A DNA stretch of 64,000 nt from Pseudomonas quebecensis. Its GTDB lineage: Bacteria > Pseudomonadota > Gammaproteobacteria > Pseudomonadales > Pseudomonadaceae. Shown here in pieces: positions 24,789 to 34,622 of the stretch (the first letter of the stretch is position 1; each line of letters begins with the position of its first letter). Location: NCBI RefSeq assembly GCF_026410085.1, contig NZ_CP112866.1, positions 4,401,001 to 4,465,000 of the forward strand, given 5' to 3'. Below the pieces are notes generated by a model that saw only the letters and a list, made by a program, of their open reading frames with translations, was not told where the DNA came from and ran no database searches. The translations under genes and the position numbers were made by a program.

Positions 24789-24908
24789 GGGACGCTCCTC
24801 ATGTAACGTTCGCCGCCGATCACTGGTCTATTTTATAAGCAGGGATCAATTCGTAGTTGGGCGTGGCGTATGGTTAACCATAGGACACGTCAACGGTTCA
24901 GGTACGCC

Positions 24909-24940
24909 AAAACTTATACCAAAAAACAATATTGTACAGC
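24909..24940. promoter_or_regulatory. Operator-like region 1 of the photolyase cluster
   Basis: AAAACTTATACC (24909-24920) and TTGTACAGC (24932-24940), with CTGTACG again at 24959. The same two words in the same order occur upstream of the DUF523 gene (26196-26227). They lie between the diverging TIGR01777 and flavoprotein genes, 47 bp before the flavoprotein ATG. Likely binding site for the cluster's MerR-type regulator (inference). Confidence 0.55.
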
Positions 24941-24986
24941 TATTGGTCTCGGCGTAGCCTGTACGCAACGGTAAATGAGGCTCACC

Positions 24987-25973
24987 ATGACTCTACCCAT
25001 CGCGATTATCGGTACCGGTATTGCCGGTCTCTCCGCCGCCCGAGCGTTAAAAGAGGCCGGGCATGTTGTACAACTCTTCGATAAAAGTCGCGGCAGCGGC
25101 GGGCGTATGTCCAGCAAGCGCAGCGATGCCGGTGCGCTGGACATGGGCGCCCAGTACTTCACCGCCCGTGATCGGCGTTTTGCCACCGAGGTGCAGCGCT
25201 GGCAGGCGCAGGGCGTGGTCGATCAGTGGCTACCCAAGCTCTACCAATTCAAGTCCGGCCAGCTCACTCCCTCCCCCGATGAACAGGTGCGCTGGGTCGG
25301 CACACCACGCATGAGTGCCATCACTCGCGCACTGCTGGATGATTTGCCGGTGCAGTTCGGTTGCCGCATCACCGAGGTGTTCCAGGGCAAACATCACTGG
25401 AACCTGCAGGACGCCGACGGCGGCAATCACGGGCCTTTCAGCCACGTGATCATCGCCACCCCGGCGCCCCAAGCGAGCGCCCTGCTGGCGGCCGCGCCCA
25501 AACTGGCGAGCGTCGCCGCCGGGGTAAAAATGGACCCCACCTGGGCCGTCGCCCTGGCCTTCGACACACCGCTGGACACCCCGATGCAAGGCTGTTTCGT
25601 ACAAGACAGCCCCCTCGACTGGCTGGCACGCAACCGCAGCAAGCCAGGGCGCGACACGCGCCTCGACACCTGGGTTCTGCATGCCACCAGCGCTTGGAGC
25701 AAGGCCCACCTGGACCTGTCCAAGGAAGCAATCACGGAATACCTGCACGGTGCCTTCGCCGAGTTGCTGCACAGCACCATGCCCGAGCCTTCGTTCAGCC
25801 TTGCCCATCGCTGGCTCTATGCGCGACCGTCCAGCGCCCATGAGTTCGGCGTACTCGCCGATGCTGACCTGGGGTTGTATGTCTGCGGCGACTGGTGCCT
25901 GTCCGGCCGCGTGGAAGGCGCCTGGCTCAGTGGCCAGGAAGCGGCGCGCCGTCTGATCGAGCATCTGCAATGA
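24987..25973 (+). CDS. Renalase-like FAD-dependent oxidoreductase
   Basis: A 328-residue flavoprotein: dinucleotide-binding motif [17 protein letters not shown] at the start, [16 protein letters not shown] (a renalase-group mark) and a C-terminal FAD-contact stretch [20 protein letters not shown]. Renalase-like bacterial enzymes oxidise isomeric forms of reduced NAD(P); the reaction here is not proven. ATG at 24987 has GAGG 8 bases upstream; an ATG at 24975 is an alternative. It is the first gene of the plus-strand photolyase cluster and ends overlapping the Trp-rich gene (ATGA). Confidence 0.85.
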
Positions 25974-32086: not shown

Positions 32087-32892
32087 ACAGTGCCCTGTAC
32101 AGCGGCTGGATCGCCCATCGCCGGTTTGCGCCCAAGGGCCATGCGTTTCGCTACCGCATCGGCCTGCTGTACCTGGATTTGAGTGAAGAAGACCACGTGC
32201 TAGGGCTCTCGCCCCTGGCCGGGCGCAGCCGCCTGGCGCCTTTTGGTTTTCGCCAGCAGGACTACCTGCGTGAGTTGACCGGCCACGGCATGAGCCTGAG
32301 CGATGCCGTGCGCCAGGAAGTCGGCAAGGCGCTGGGGCGTACACCCCAGGGCGTTATCTGCCTACTGACCCAGGCCCGCAGTTGGGGCCTGGCTTTTAAT
32401 CCGGTGAGTTTCTTCTACTGTTTCGAGGCCGACGGGCAACTGGCCGCGATCCTGTGTGAAGTCACCAATACCCCTTGGCGCGAGCGCTACCGCTACGTCC
32501 TGCCGGCCCAGGCTCTGGGTGCGGACGAGCACCAGCATTTTGCCGTGGCCAAGGCGTTCCATGTGTCGCCGTTCCTGCCGCGCGACCTGCAATACCGCAT
32601 GAGCTTCAGCCCGCCCGCCGAGCGGCTCGGCGTGCACATGGCCGACTGGCAGGGCGAATTGAAAGTCTTCGACGCCACCCTCAGCCTGCACAAAGAGGCG
32701 CTGACCCGCGCCAGCCTGCACCGCTACCTGTGGCGCTTTCCGTGGATGACCGCCAAGACCTGCCTGGCGATTTACTGGCAGGCCTTGCGCCTGTTGCTTA
32801 AACGTACACCGATTTTCTCCCACCGGGCCGCCGATGGCGCCTCTCGCACCGCCGTCGGGTATACCAAGGAACATCGCCATGAAATCCCCTAG
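32083..32892 (+). CDS. DUF1365 family protein
   Basis: A 269-residue DUF1365 protein (SGWIAHRRFAPKGHAFRYRI at the start; LLTQARSWGLAFNPVSFFYC; VAKAFHVSPFLP). The family has no known activity but nearly always sits between a flavin amine oxidase and a CFA-like methyltransferase. Start is GTG at 32083, overlapping the flavoprotein stop; the end overlaps the methyltransferase start by 14 bp. Confidence 0.85.
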   Translation: MNSALYSGWIAHRRFAPKGHAFRYRIGLLYLDLSEEDHVLGLSPLAGRSRLAPFGFRQQDYLRELTGHGMSLSDAVRQEVGKALGRTPQGVICLLTQARSWGLAFNPVSFFYCFEADGQLAAILCEVTNTPWRERYRYVLPAQALGADEHQHFAVAKAFHVSPFLPRDLQYRMSFSPPAERLGVHMADWQGELKVFDATLSLHKEALTRASLHRYLWRFPWMTAKTCLAIYWQALRLLLKRTPIFSHRAADGASRTAVGYTKEHRHEIP

Positions 32893-34150
32893 CTTATCGG
32901 TCAAGGCCAGCCGCCTGAACGTCAACGGCATGACCACCGCGCTGCTGCGCAAGGGTGTGCTGCGTCAACTCAGCCAATTGCGCCACGGCCAGTTGGTGGT
33001 GATCGAGGATGGTGAACGCCAAGTGTTCGGCGCACGGGAAGCGCACCTGCTAGGGGAAATCCAGATCGTCGATCCGGCCGTGTGGGGCCTGGTGGCGGCC
33101 AACGGGTCGATCGGCGCCGGCGAGGCATTTATCCACGGCCATTGGACCAGTCCGGACCTGACCGCCGTAGTGCGGGTGATGGTCAGCAACCTGGACGTAC
33201 TCGACGCGATGGAGGGTGGCCTGGCCCGCCTCGCGCGCCCGCTCACCCAAAGCCTGCACTGGCTCAACCGCAATACGCGCAAGGGCTCGCAAAAAAATAT
33301 CGCCACTCACTATGACCTGGGCAACGACTTGTTCGAAGCGTTTCTGGACCCGACCATGATGTACTCGGCGGCGCAATTTCTGACGGCCGACGACACGCTG
33401 GAACAGGCGCAACTGAACAAACTGGAACGCATCTGTCAGAAACTGGCGCTTAAACCCAGCGACCATTTGCTGGAAATCGGCACCGGCTGGGGCAGCATGG
33501 CGCTGTATGCGGCGCAGCATTACGGCTGCAAGGTCACCACCACGACGTTGTCCAAAGAACAGTTCGCCTACACCCAGCAACGAATCCACGCCTTGGGCCT
33601 GCAGGACCAGGTCACCCTGTTGCTGAGCGATTACCGCGATCTGACGGGGCAGTACGACAAACTGGTGTCGATCGAGATGATCGAAGCGGTGGGCCATCGC
33701 TTTCTGCCCACCTACTTCAAGCAATGCGCGCAGTTGCTCAAGCGCGACGGCCTGATGCTGCTGCAGGCCATCACCATTCGCGAACAGCGTTTCGAGCAGG
33801 CCAGGCGCAGTGTGGATTTTATCCAACGCTACATTTTCCCCGGCGGCGCCCTGCCTTCGGTGCAGAACATGCTGCACATCGTCGGCCGCGACACCGACAT
33901 GAACCTGTTGCACATGGAAGACTTCGGCCTGCACTACGCAAAAACCCTGCGCCTGTGGCATGAGAATTTTCGCCGCGCCCATGGCCGCCTATCGGAACTG
34001 GGCTACGACGAATACTTCCTGCGGCTGTGGGAGTTTTACCTGTGTTACTGCGAAGGTGGCTTTATGGAGCGCACCATCGGCACCGCTCAATTGCTGCTGG
34101 CCAAGCCCGCAGCCATCAACCCACCCCTGCTCGGACGCTTCAATGCTTAA
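32879..34150 (+). CDS. Cyclopropane-fatty-acyl-phospholipid synthase family methyltransferase
   Basis: A 423-residue SAM-dependent methyltransferase of the CFA synthase family. HYDLGNDLFEAFLDPTMMYS (144-163), the SAM loop LEIGTGWGSMA (about 198-208), TTTLSKEQFAY and a C-terminal block FMERTIGTAQLLL are visible. Members act on unsaturated phospholipid acyl chains, making cyclopropane or methyl-branched/furan fatty acids (UfaM group). ATG at 32879 has AAGGA upstream; the frame is open 15 codons earlier inside DUF1365. The gene next to DUF1365 and DUF2878 suggests the methyl-branch/furan pathway more than ordinary CFA (inference). Confidence 0.88.
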   Translation: MKSPSLSVKASRLNVNGMTTALLRKGVLRQLSQLRHGQLVVIEDGERQVFGAREAHLLGEIQIVDPAVWGLVAANGSIGAGEAFIHGHWTSPDLTAVVRVMVSNLDVLDAMEGGLARLARPLTQSLHWLNRNTRKGSQKNIATHYDLGNDLFEAFLDPTMMYSAAQFLTADDTLEQAQLNKLERICQKLALKPSDHLLEIGTGWGSMALYAAQHYGCKVTTTTLSKEQFAYTQQRIHALGLQDQVTLLLSDYRDLTGQYDKLVSIEMIEAVGHRFLPTYFKQCAQLLKRDGLMLLQAITIREQRFEQARRSVDFIQRYIFPGGALPSVQNMLHIVGRDTDMNLLHMEDFGLHYAKTLRLWHENFRRAHGRLSELGYDEYFLRLWEFYLCYCEGGFMERTIGTAQLLLAKPAAINPPLLGRFNA

Positions 34151-34622
34151 AACCGTGGCCAACGCCGCGCTGTTCCAGTGCGGCTGGTTTGCCTGCGTGC
34201 TGGGCGGCGACAGCCTCTGGTTGCTGGTGGGTGTGGTAGTCCTGGCCGTTCACCTGCTGTGGATAAGTTCATGGGCCGAGGACGGCGCGCTGATTATCGG
34301 CGTGACCCTGGCGGGCACTGTGCTGGACACCTTGCTGCGGGTGTCGGGGGTGTTTCAGTTCAGCGAACCGGGGCCGTTGATCCCGTTCTGGCTGATGCTG
34401 TTGTGGGCCCTACTGGCGACCACGCTGCGGCATTGCCTGGCCTGGAGCGCGCAACCCTGGTGGCTGGCCGCCTTGCTGGGCGCGGTGGGTGGGCCGCTGT
34501 CGTATTACGCCGGCAGCCAGTTGGCGGGGGTGCGATTTGGCTTCGCCCTGGCACCGACGCTCAGCGGGTTGGCACTGCTGTGGGCGGCGGTTTTTGTCGG
34601 ATTGCATCGGCTGGCACGCTGA
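34143..34622 (+). CDS. DUF2878 family inner-membrane protein
   Basis: A 159-residue hydrophobic protein with about five membrane segments (for example LWLLVGVVVLAVHLLWISS, LIPFWLMLLWALLATTL, LSGLALLWAAVFVGLH). It matches the DUF2878 family that follows CFA-like genes. Role unknown; a membrane partner of the lipid-modifying enzymes is plausible. ATG at 34143 overlaps the methyltransferase stop by 8 bp, the last coupled gene of the run that starts at 26298. Confidence 0.8.
   Translation: MLKTVANAALFQCGWFACVLGGDSLWLLVGVVVLAVHLLWISSWAEDGALIIGVTLAGTVLDTLLRVSGVFQFSEPGPLIPFWLMLLWALLATTLRHCLAWSAQPWWLAALLGAVGGPLSYYAGSQLAGVRFGFALAPTLSGLALLWAAVFVGLHRLAR

Follow-up and report, generated by a model that had tools for sequence, protein, structure and literature searches.

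The closest described relative of the gene cluster studied here is the blue-light-induced pmlR1 operon of Pseudomonas mendocina NBRC 14162, whose nine genes, PME6650 to PME6610, are predicted to form a single transcript (Maruyama et al. 2022, PMC9758184). Its mapped promoter, P6650, consists of TTGACT-N16-TATGAT, with Site 1 for LitR lying over the -35 hexamer and Site 2 downstream of the start site, ahead of the ATG; pmlR1, phrB and ufaM were up 5.7- to 33-fold in blue light, and the illuminated short LOV protein bound the second LitR and ended its DNA binding (PMC9758184). A class II LitR consists of an N-terminal MerR helix-turn-helix (HTH) and a B12-binding_2 (four-helix) domain only, without the second B12 domain (PMC9758184). 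Also the pplR1 region of P. putida KT2440 is light-inducible, as cited from Sumi 2020. The cluster compared with these lies in a 64-kb stretch, hereafter the window, of the 5.63-Mb single-contig genome of Pseudomonas quebecensis. It is quite probably a blue-light photoprotection operon, in which DNA repair, removal of 4-thiouridine (s4U) from tRNA and furan lipid synthesis would be under LitR/LOV control.

Other parts of the cluster have been described separately. RudS_KT (PP_0741) is a tRNA 4-thiouridine desulfidase with seven essential residues (PMC11417400). UfaD and UfaO, the latter a DUF1365 protein, were defined genetically in Rhodobacter sphaeroides, and in the locus numbering of Rhodopseudomonas palustris ufaD, ufaO and ufaM are RPA2571, 2570 and 2569 (PMC7380195). 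In P. syringae DC3000, chromatin immunoprecipitation sequencing (ChIP-seq) covered orthologs of the R. sphaeroides RpoE-ChrR core regulon with 31-39% identity, and those of a short-chain dehydrogenase (SDR), UfaO (RSP_1090), UfaD (RSP_1091), PhrB and UfaM (RSP_2144) all fall in the same cluster, the tabulated identities for UfaO, UfaD and UfaM being 35-39% (PMC5507510). Earlier work had already established the operon as such, light control of it in two species of Pseudomonas, the RudS enzyme and the orthology to the ChrR regulon.

The operon of P. quebecensis belongs to a known system, because its nine genes and promoter match those of the blue-light-induced pmlR1 operon. Nine genes of one orientation, the first rudS and the last DUF2878, follow a sigma-70 promoter with two LitR boxes (Table 1), and the gene order, the promoter hexamers, their spacing and the positions of both boxes are the same as in P. 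mendocina; the identity of four of the nine P. mendocina genes follows from their order, since that paper calls them hypothetical. The two systems differ in the half-sites of the boxes, TATACA and TGTATA here replacing two of the TGTACA, and the comparison is between different species and, on the present side, of sequence only. A sequence-only reading made earlier of this DNA had suggested a response to light controlled by a LitR of class II, and the boxes, the promoter and the nine genes agree with it.

All eleven genes of the cluster, and the families named for them in that reading, were found on the plus strand by open reading frames and family profiles. Position 24789, given there as the start, proved to be the edge of a divergent yfcH-like gene, and the first gene begins at about 24990. 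The description of nearly all genes as overlapping held for seven of the ten junctions, four of these being of the 4-base type, and did not hold for DUF2389-rudS, rudS-litR and litR-phrB. From the first to the last, the junctions measure -4 (renalase-DUF2389), +112 (DUF2389-rudS), +3 (rudS-litR), 0 (litR-phrB), -8 (phrB-ntf2), -4 (ntf2-sdr), -4 (sdr-ufaD), -4 (ufaD-ufaO), -14 (ufaO-ufaM) and -8 bases (ufaM-DUF2878). A single transcript of eleven genes was rejected, because the 112-base gap carries a promoter and divides the cluster; two transcription units are predicted, renalase-DUF2389 with two genes and rudS-litR-phrB-ntf2-sdr-ufaD-ufaO-ufaM-DUF2878 with nine. No curated RNA element matched above the Rfam gathering score in 22000-37000.

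Table 1. Genes and regulatory sites of the cluster, in positions of the window.
Feature	Position	Strand	Basis
LitR box, 1 mismatch, renalase promoter	24915..24938	+	motif scan
Bacterial renalase (flavin adenine dinucleotide, FAD, enzyme)	24990..25973	+	full-length phmmer match to solved renalase 4zcc (E 6e-181), also 3kkj
DUF2389 / TIGR02450 Trp-rich small protein	25970..26185	+	family profile; 4-base overlap with renalase gene
LitR box 1, perfect, overlapping -35 hexamer	26202..26225	+	motif scan; position as Site 1 of P6650
Sigma-70 promoter TTGACT-N16-TATGAT	26214..26241	+	hexamers and spacing identical to P6650 of P. mendocina
LitR box 2, perfect, between predicted transcription start and rudS ATG	26252..26275	+	matches Site 2 of P6650
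rudS, TudS-DUF1722, predicted tRNA 4-thiouridine desulfidase	26298..27257	+	Pfam; seven RudS_KT residues present
Class II LitR (MerR HTH + B12-binding_2 only)	27261..28202	+	family profiles
phrB, deoxyribodipyrimidine photolyase	28203..29648	+	NF007955, 539.7 bits vs cut-off 506
NTF2-like/SnoaL_2 protein	29641..30063	+	Pfam; profile matches steroid isomerase/limonene epoxide hydrolase chains
SDR	30060..30842	+	family profile; in 60/60 Pseudomonas loci fetched
UfaD-type FAD desaturase	30839..32086	+	family profile; 38% to Qingshengfaniella enzyme
UfaO-type DUF1365 protein	32083..32892	+	PF07103, 252 bits; 33% to Qingshengfaniella protein
UfaM-type S-adenosylmethionine methyltransferase, relative of cyclopropane fatty acid synthase (CFAS)	32879..34150	+	family profile; bicarbonate-binding His replaced by Gln
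DUF2878 small protein	34143..34622	+	PF11086, 141 bits; in 56/60 Pseudomonas loci fetched

The two LitR boxes at the rudS promoter have the form T(G/A)TACA-N12-TGTA(C/T)A. These perfect boxes flank the -10 hexamer of the rudS promoter on both sides, and with at most two mismatches the window includes altogether 11 matches, against 1.5 +/- 1.3 in shuffled sequences. TTGACT-N16-TATGAT was the sole sigma-70-like site detected in 24700-34750. Over the whole genome 22 sites with at most one mismatch were found against 11 for the backwards-read control, so that most genome-wide matches were rejected as targets; 14 of the 19 sites outside the cluster were inspected, and seven of these lie inside predicted reading frames.

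The LitR of the window fits the class II definition, with PF13411 and PF02607 present and no PF02310 match. A second LitR, 37-39% identical to it, is encoded at genome position 724053, and a short LOV protein (motif QDCRFLQ) lies near it with one reading frame between. Together with GTP cyclohydrolase I (folE), an SDR and a HopJ-family (PF08888) gene they occupy the stretch 718000-730000. The closest PDB match of this LOV protein is 7yx0, from P. fluorescens SBW25. In its LitR, LOV, folE and SDR genes the stretch is similar to the pmlR2/folMEX region of P. mendocina, where a single gene likewise separates the short LOV from the second LitR.

The DUF523-DUF1722 protein is RudS by its domains, and the three Cys, the Glu, the Arg and the two Ser named for RudS_KT are all kept; as domains and seven active-site residues are common to the two proteins, the same activity is predicted for that of the window. 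The sequence-only reading had named the family rightly, and the identity is now that of a RudS, which acts on tRNA. The phrB product belongs to the class I cyclobutane pyrimidine dimer photolyases of the Escherichia coli phrB type (NF007955), from which repair activity is predicted. The flavoprotein first described as renalase-like is a bacterial renalase by its full-length match to the solved structures (Table 1), and the LitR-boxed promoter is the feature noted here.

Among the lipid genes, DUF1365 had been left as an undefined partner. It belongs to the UfaO family, which has a proposed function, and therefore the lipid genes form a full UfaM-UfaD-UfaO furan fatty-acid set. With the three enzyme families encoded together, the sequence supports the furan-fatty-acid type of pathway suggested earlier. 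The families are those of the R. sphaeroides and R. palustris pathway, in the ufaD-ufaO-ufaM order of R. palustris; the differences are that LitR boxes are found here instead of RpoE-ChrR, that the genes are fused into a photolyase/RudS operon, and that the product is a predicted one. In Qingshengfaniella, whose UfaD and UfaO are compared in Table 1, ufaD adjoins rpoE-chrR and ufaO. When a profile of 17 NTF2-like sequences was run against the PDB, it matched steroid isomerase and limonene epoxide hydrolase chains (E 1e-6 to 3e-6), and because of this type of match a small-molecule pocket is likely in the NTF2-like protein.

The named relatives of the window UfaO, among the matches listed, are from Pseudomonas. 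Counting that of the window, 89 of 119 Pseudomonas genomes have UfaO, and 60 loci, chosen by ufaO, were fetched from the 88 others. Every one of these loci included sdr, ufaD, ufaO and ufaM; ntf2 was present in 58, DUF2878 in 56, phrB in 48, rudS in 47, renalase in 46 and DUF2389 in 45. A litR was scored in 55 loci, of which seven are divergent neighbours with 29-33% identity. Upstream of ufaO, the arrangement rudS-litR-phrB was present in 47 loci and litR-phrB in 48, and the grouping of the genes is not due to chance. All 60 loci had a LitR box with at most one mismatch before the first gene of the operon, and all 46 renalase genes had one too (nine perfect), whereas the backwards control gave 0/60 and 0/46; a TTGACT-like/TATGAT pair was present at the operon promoter in 34 of the 60. 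Twelve loci (L077-L088) have ntf2-sdr-ufaD-ufaO-ufaM(-DUF2878) apart from rudS-litR-phrB, with LitR box(es) of their own, and because the module stands alone in them, they suggest that the NTF2-like protein and the SDR are part of the lipid module. In seven of these split loci a diverged litR-like gene is found nearby on the opposite strand.

Outside Pseudomonas two sets of loci were compared. A UfaD is encoded in 69 of 229 gammaproteobacterial genomes, one of them being that of the window, and the 60 loci fetched from the 68 others, thus chosen by UfaD, included ufaO in 58 and ufaM in 56. The second set, hereafter the genome_contigs loci, comprised the best 80 of at least 594 confirmed loci chosen by UfaM patterns, and 66 of these had ufaD and ufaO near ufaM. 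The three genes are kept together in many gamma-, alpha- and betaproteobacterial loci.

On this basis the operon may work as follows. In the dark a class II LitR, the window copy and/or the paralog at 724053, would bind the two boxes around the rudS promoter and block transcription. In blue light the short LOV encoded near the paralog would bind LitR and remove it from the DNA, a step taken by analogy from P. mendocina, and the nine proteins would then be made. PhrB would repair pyrimidine dimers and RudS would strip the near-UV-sensitive 4-thiouridine from tRNA, while UfaM would methylate cis-vaccenoyl chains to an 11-methyl product, UfaD would introduce a second double bond after the UfaM step, and UfaO would insert O2 and close the furan ring, giving furan phospholipid chains that would scavenge reactive oxygen species (ROS). 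The NTF2-like protein, the SDR and DUF2878 would be accessory parts of the lipid module, and the second LitR-boxed unit would make renalase and DUF2389.

Some points weigh against reading the cluster as a light-controlled operon for furan lipids. By count alone the promoter is within chance, one site found where shuffles average 1.6; the match carries weight because it is identical to the mapped promoter and flanked by LitR boxes, not because of the count. Kinship to the tested enzymes is indirect, through the sequences of relatives, since searches for the R. sphaeroides and R. palustris proteins gave relatives from other species. R. sphaeroides without three other genes of the ufaD operon, including the SDR gene RSP1087, had unaltered fatty acids (PMC7380195), which makes a lipid role of the SDR uncertain. 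The titles and abstracts listed from the open-licence literature, a scope that leaves the 2020 P. putida paper outside, gave no report of furan fatty acids in a Pseudomonas, and both expression and lipid product in this organism are predictions. That silence would also suit an unlikely but appreciable alternative, in which the UfaD, UfaO and UfaM of Pseudomonas, having drifted, no longer close a furan ring and instead give, for instance, a conjugated diene or methyl-branched chain. The UfaO of the window is just 23-35% identical to 44 aligned homologs from the genome_contigs loci, and a UfaO sequence profile matched no solved structure in the PDB that would allow an active-site check; however, 18 columns are invariant across 54 aligned UfaO sequences, including H12, R14, D60, R99, Y138, K157 and Y171, and the triad stays together across bacterial classes. 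Less probable still is a reading without furan lipids: the methyltransferase would act as any ordinary cyclopropane synthase, and under light stress cyclopropane rings would be all that the operon adds. UfaM is of the same PF02353 family as the genome's own CfaB and 36% identical to it, and Halomonas UfaM in E. coli gave 11-methyl-octadecenoate, yet cyclic chains were also detected in that strain (PMC12089945). UfaM, however, scored below the cut-off of every NCBIfam cyclopropane fatty acid (CFA) synthase model matched (295.7 against 400, 287.5 against 600 and 248 against 650), while CfaB passed NF040703 with 757.5 bits against 650. Bicarbonate in E. coli CFAS is bound through Glu239, His266 and Tyr317 (PMC11387697), and in UfaM the first and last of these positions are kept and the His266 position is Gln. 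The same Gln was present in 60 of 60 Pseudomonas loci, in 52 of 53 other gammaproteobacterial ones (one His; 53 of the 60 loci gave a protein of more than 300 amino acids and the others were dropped), in all five plasmid loci and in 80 of 80 genome_contigs loci, where the search patterns favour UfaM-like sequences; CfaB keeps the His. Ala, Ser or Cys can occupy the Cys139 position, which is not diagnostic. UfaM also accompanies ufaD in all 60 Pseudomonas loci. An ordinary CFA synthase was rejected on the cut-offs and the His266 replacement, and by its sequence UfaM is not a canonical CFA synthase. Proteins of the UfaM type in relatives are now annotated as 'cyclopropane-fatty-acyl-phospholipid synthase family'. 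Near ufaD-ufaO-ufaM, Rhizobium tropici (L100, 2910-3938) and Burkholderia anthina (L102, 3110-4210) have an extra CFA-like methyltransferase gene with the catalytic His kept and a DUF1295 gene adjoining.

A further alternative concerns the signal: the operon might answer mainly to singlet oxygen or peroxide via RpoE-ChrR, as in R. sphaeroides and P. syringae, with light acting indirectly. The RpoE-ChrR (PSPTO_1043/1042) regulon of DC3000 includes the orthologous phrB-SDR-UfaD-UfaO-UfaM genes, and a sigma-E promoter inside its litR responds to singlet oxygen (PMC5507510); chrR was also found near the cassette in six of the 60 gammaproteobacterial loci and in 40 of the best 80 genome_contigs loci. 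In contrast to DC3000, neither ChrR nor the promoter site was found here. The genome gave no TIGR02451 match and one Cupin_7 below the cut-off, and sites like TGATCC-N16-CGTA were found neither with at most two mismatches in 26585-30309 nor with at most one in the 500 bases before phrB; the 52 window-wide matches with at most two mismatches are within chance (39.8 +/- 6.6). PF12973, above its cut-off in 88 of 119 genomes with many short weak matches, is a poor marker of ChrR, and TIGR02451 was used instead, giving four of 119 genomes above the cut-off when weaker matches in 26 genomes are left out of the count. A sigma-E box (at most one mismatch) before phrB and inside litR was present in four of the 48 phrB-bearing Pseudomonas loci (L056-L059), which are exactly those of the four ChrR genomes. 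The short LOV, as judged from matches of at least 57% identity as opposed to 41-46% matches in frames of more than 1200 amino acids, is absent in five of the 89 cluster-bearing genomes, and three of the five are among the four ChrR genomes (Fisher p = 3.5e-4, probably one clade; p-values here and below ignore phylogeny). With the TIGR02451, cupin and sigma-E searches all negative, a ChrR-controlled singlet-oxygen operon was rejected; the RpoE-ChrR route is largely refuted for this genome and very improbable, and the singlet-oxygen arm of the sequence-only reading falls with it.

In other proteobacteria the two kinds of regulator seem to alternate near the same cassette, comprising RudS, photolyase, NTF2-like protein, SDR, UfaD-UfaO-UfaM, DUF2878 and DUF3833. 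Regulators were sought only inside the fetched stretches of 6-15 kb, some of them ended by contig ends, and the label 'LitR' is used here for genes matched in tblastn by either the window LitR or a Salinivibrio MerR. In the 60 gammaproteobacterial loci LitR was near in 15, ChrR in six, both in none and neither in 39; in the best 80 genome_contigs loci the numbers were seven, 40, none and 33, six of the seven with LitR being betaproteobacterial by record title. When the 140 loci were pooled, a LitR-like protein was near the cassette in 22, ChrR in 46 and both in none (p = 1e-4, in part because the alphaproteobacteria in the sample use ChrR), and in the gammaproteobacterial set alone the exclusion (0/60 with both) was not significant (p = 0.32). 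The exclusion is one of neighbourhood, not of genome. The clearest named cases of each wiring are two plasmid records: Pseudoalteromonas sp. CF6-2 has rpoE-chrR-rudS-phrB-ntf2-sdr-ufaD-ufaO-ufaM-DUF2878-chalcone isomerase-DUF3833, and Salinivibrio proteolyticus has rudS-merR-phrB-ntf2-sdr-ufaD-ufaO-ufaM-DUF2878-hyp-DUF3833. Identity between the MerR of Salinivibrio and the window LitR is 47% and confined to the DNA-binding end, and the former has an MlrA-type helical domain; it is for these reasons called LitR-like and not a proven LitR; the other 'LitR' labels in the gammaproteobacterial and genome_contigs sets are likewise to be read as LitR-like.

Also DUF3833 is associated with LitR boxes in Pseudomonas. 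The gene was found in 67 of the 119 genomes, all 67 among the 89 with UfaO (p = 2e-14), and in the 30 best-scoring loci of these 67 genomes a LitR box was present in 15, at most 54 bases from the start in 11 and 555-608 bases upstream, before a small gene, in four; the other 15 loci had none, and the backwards control gave 0/30. The genome of the window has a 3' fragment of DUF3833 (profile positions 112-163 of 163) behind a perfect LitR box at 3728645. The fragment adjoins what by eye looks like a tRNA gene, and in another genome of the same species (G040) a LitR box of this kind precedes a DUF3833 gene of full length. In Erwinia amylovora a CFA-synthase-like gene adjoining a DUF3833 gene is mentioned (PMC8465259). 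On the other side of the renalase promoter, a yfcH-like epimerase gene (23889-24788) and then the ferrochelatase gene hemH (22849-23874) run divergently on the minus strand, and the yfcH-like neighbour goes with renalase in the Pseudomonas loci compared.

We tentatively propose, as a possibility somewhat short of probable, that proteobacteria have one photoprotection cassette in common, which is wired locally to one of two sensors, LitR/LOV, sensing light ahead of damage, or RpoE-ChrR, sensing singlet oxygen; that most Pseudomonas would make furan fatty acids on light itself; and that the same LitR regulon takes in renalase and DUF3833. In Vibrio cholerae a MerR gene adjoins the photolyase gene (VCA0056-VCA0057) and a ChrR-sigma-E pair is also present; the blue-light response involves both of them, and ROS is the signal that the authors of that study suggest in each case (PMC5241685). 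Since V. cholerae runs both regulators side by side in one genome, at separate loci, our confidence in the two-sensor proposal is lowered. Among the open-licence papers listed, none was found to report an alternation of LitR and ChrR at one cassette, LitR boxes at renalase and DUF3833, or the His-to-Gln signature of UfaM, although Sumi 2020 could contain part of them. No open-licence paper searched contained the words renalase, LitR, Pseudomonas and light together, and the excerpts of two papers that name both ChrR and LitR gave no such comparison of the two regulators, LitR appearing there only in references or as a photosensor family.

The His-to-Gln signature would tell UfaM from cyclopropane synthases in genome annotation, and the promoter catalogue proposes renalase and DUF3833 as additional LitR targets. 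The operon of P. quebecensis would be well suited to the question whether light sensing triggers furan fatty acid synthesis ahead of photo-oxidative stress, as opposed to synthesis after singlet oxygen as in R. sphaeroides, and comparison of LitR-wired with ChrR-wired copies of the cassette may show how bacteria swap sensors and keep effectors.

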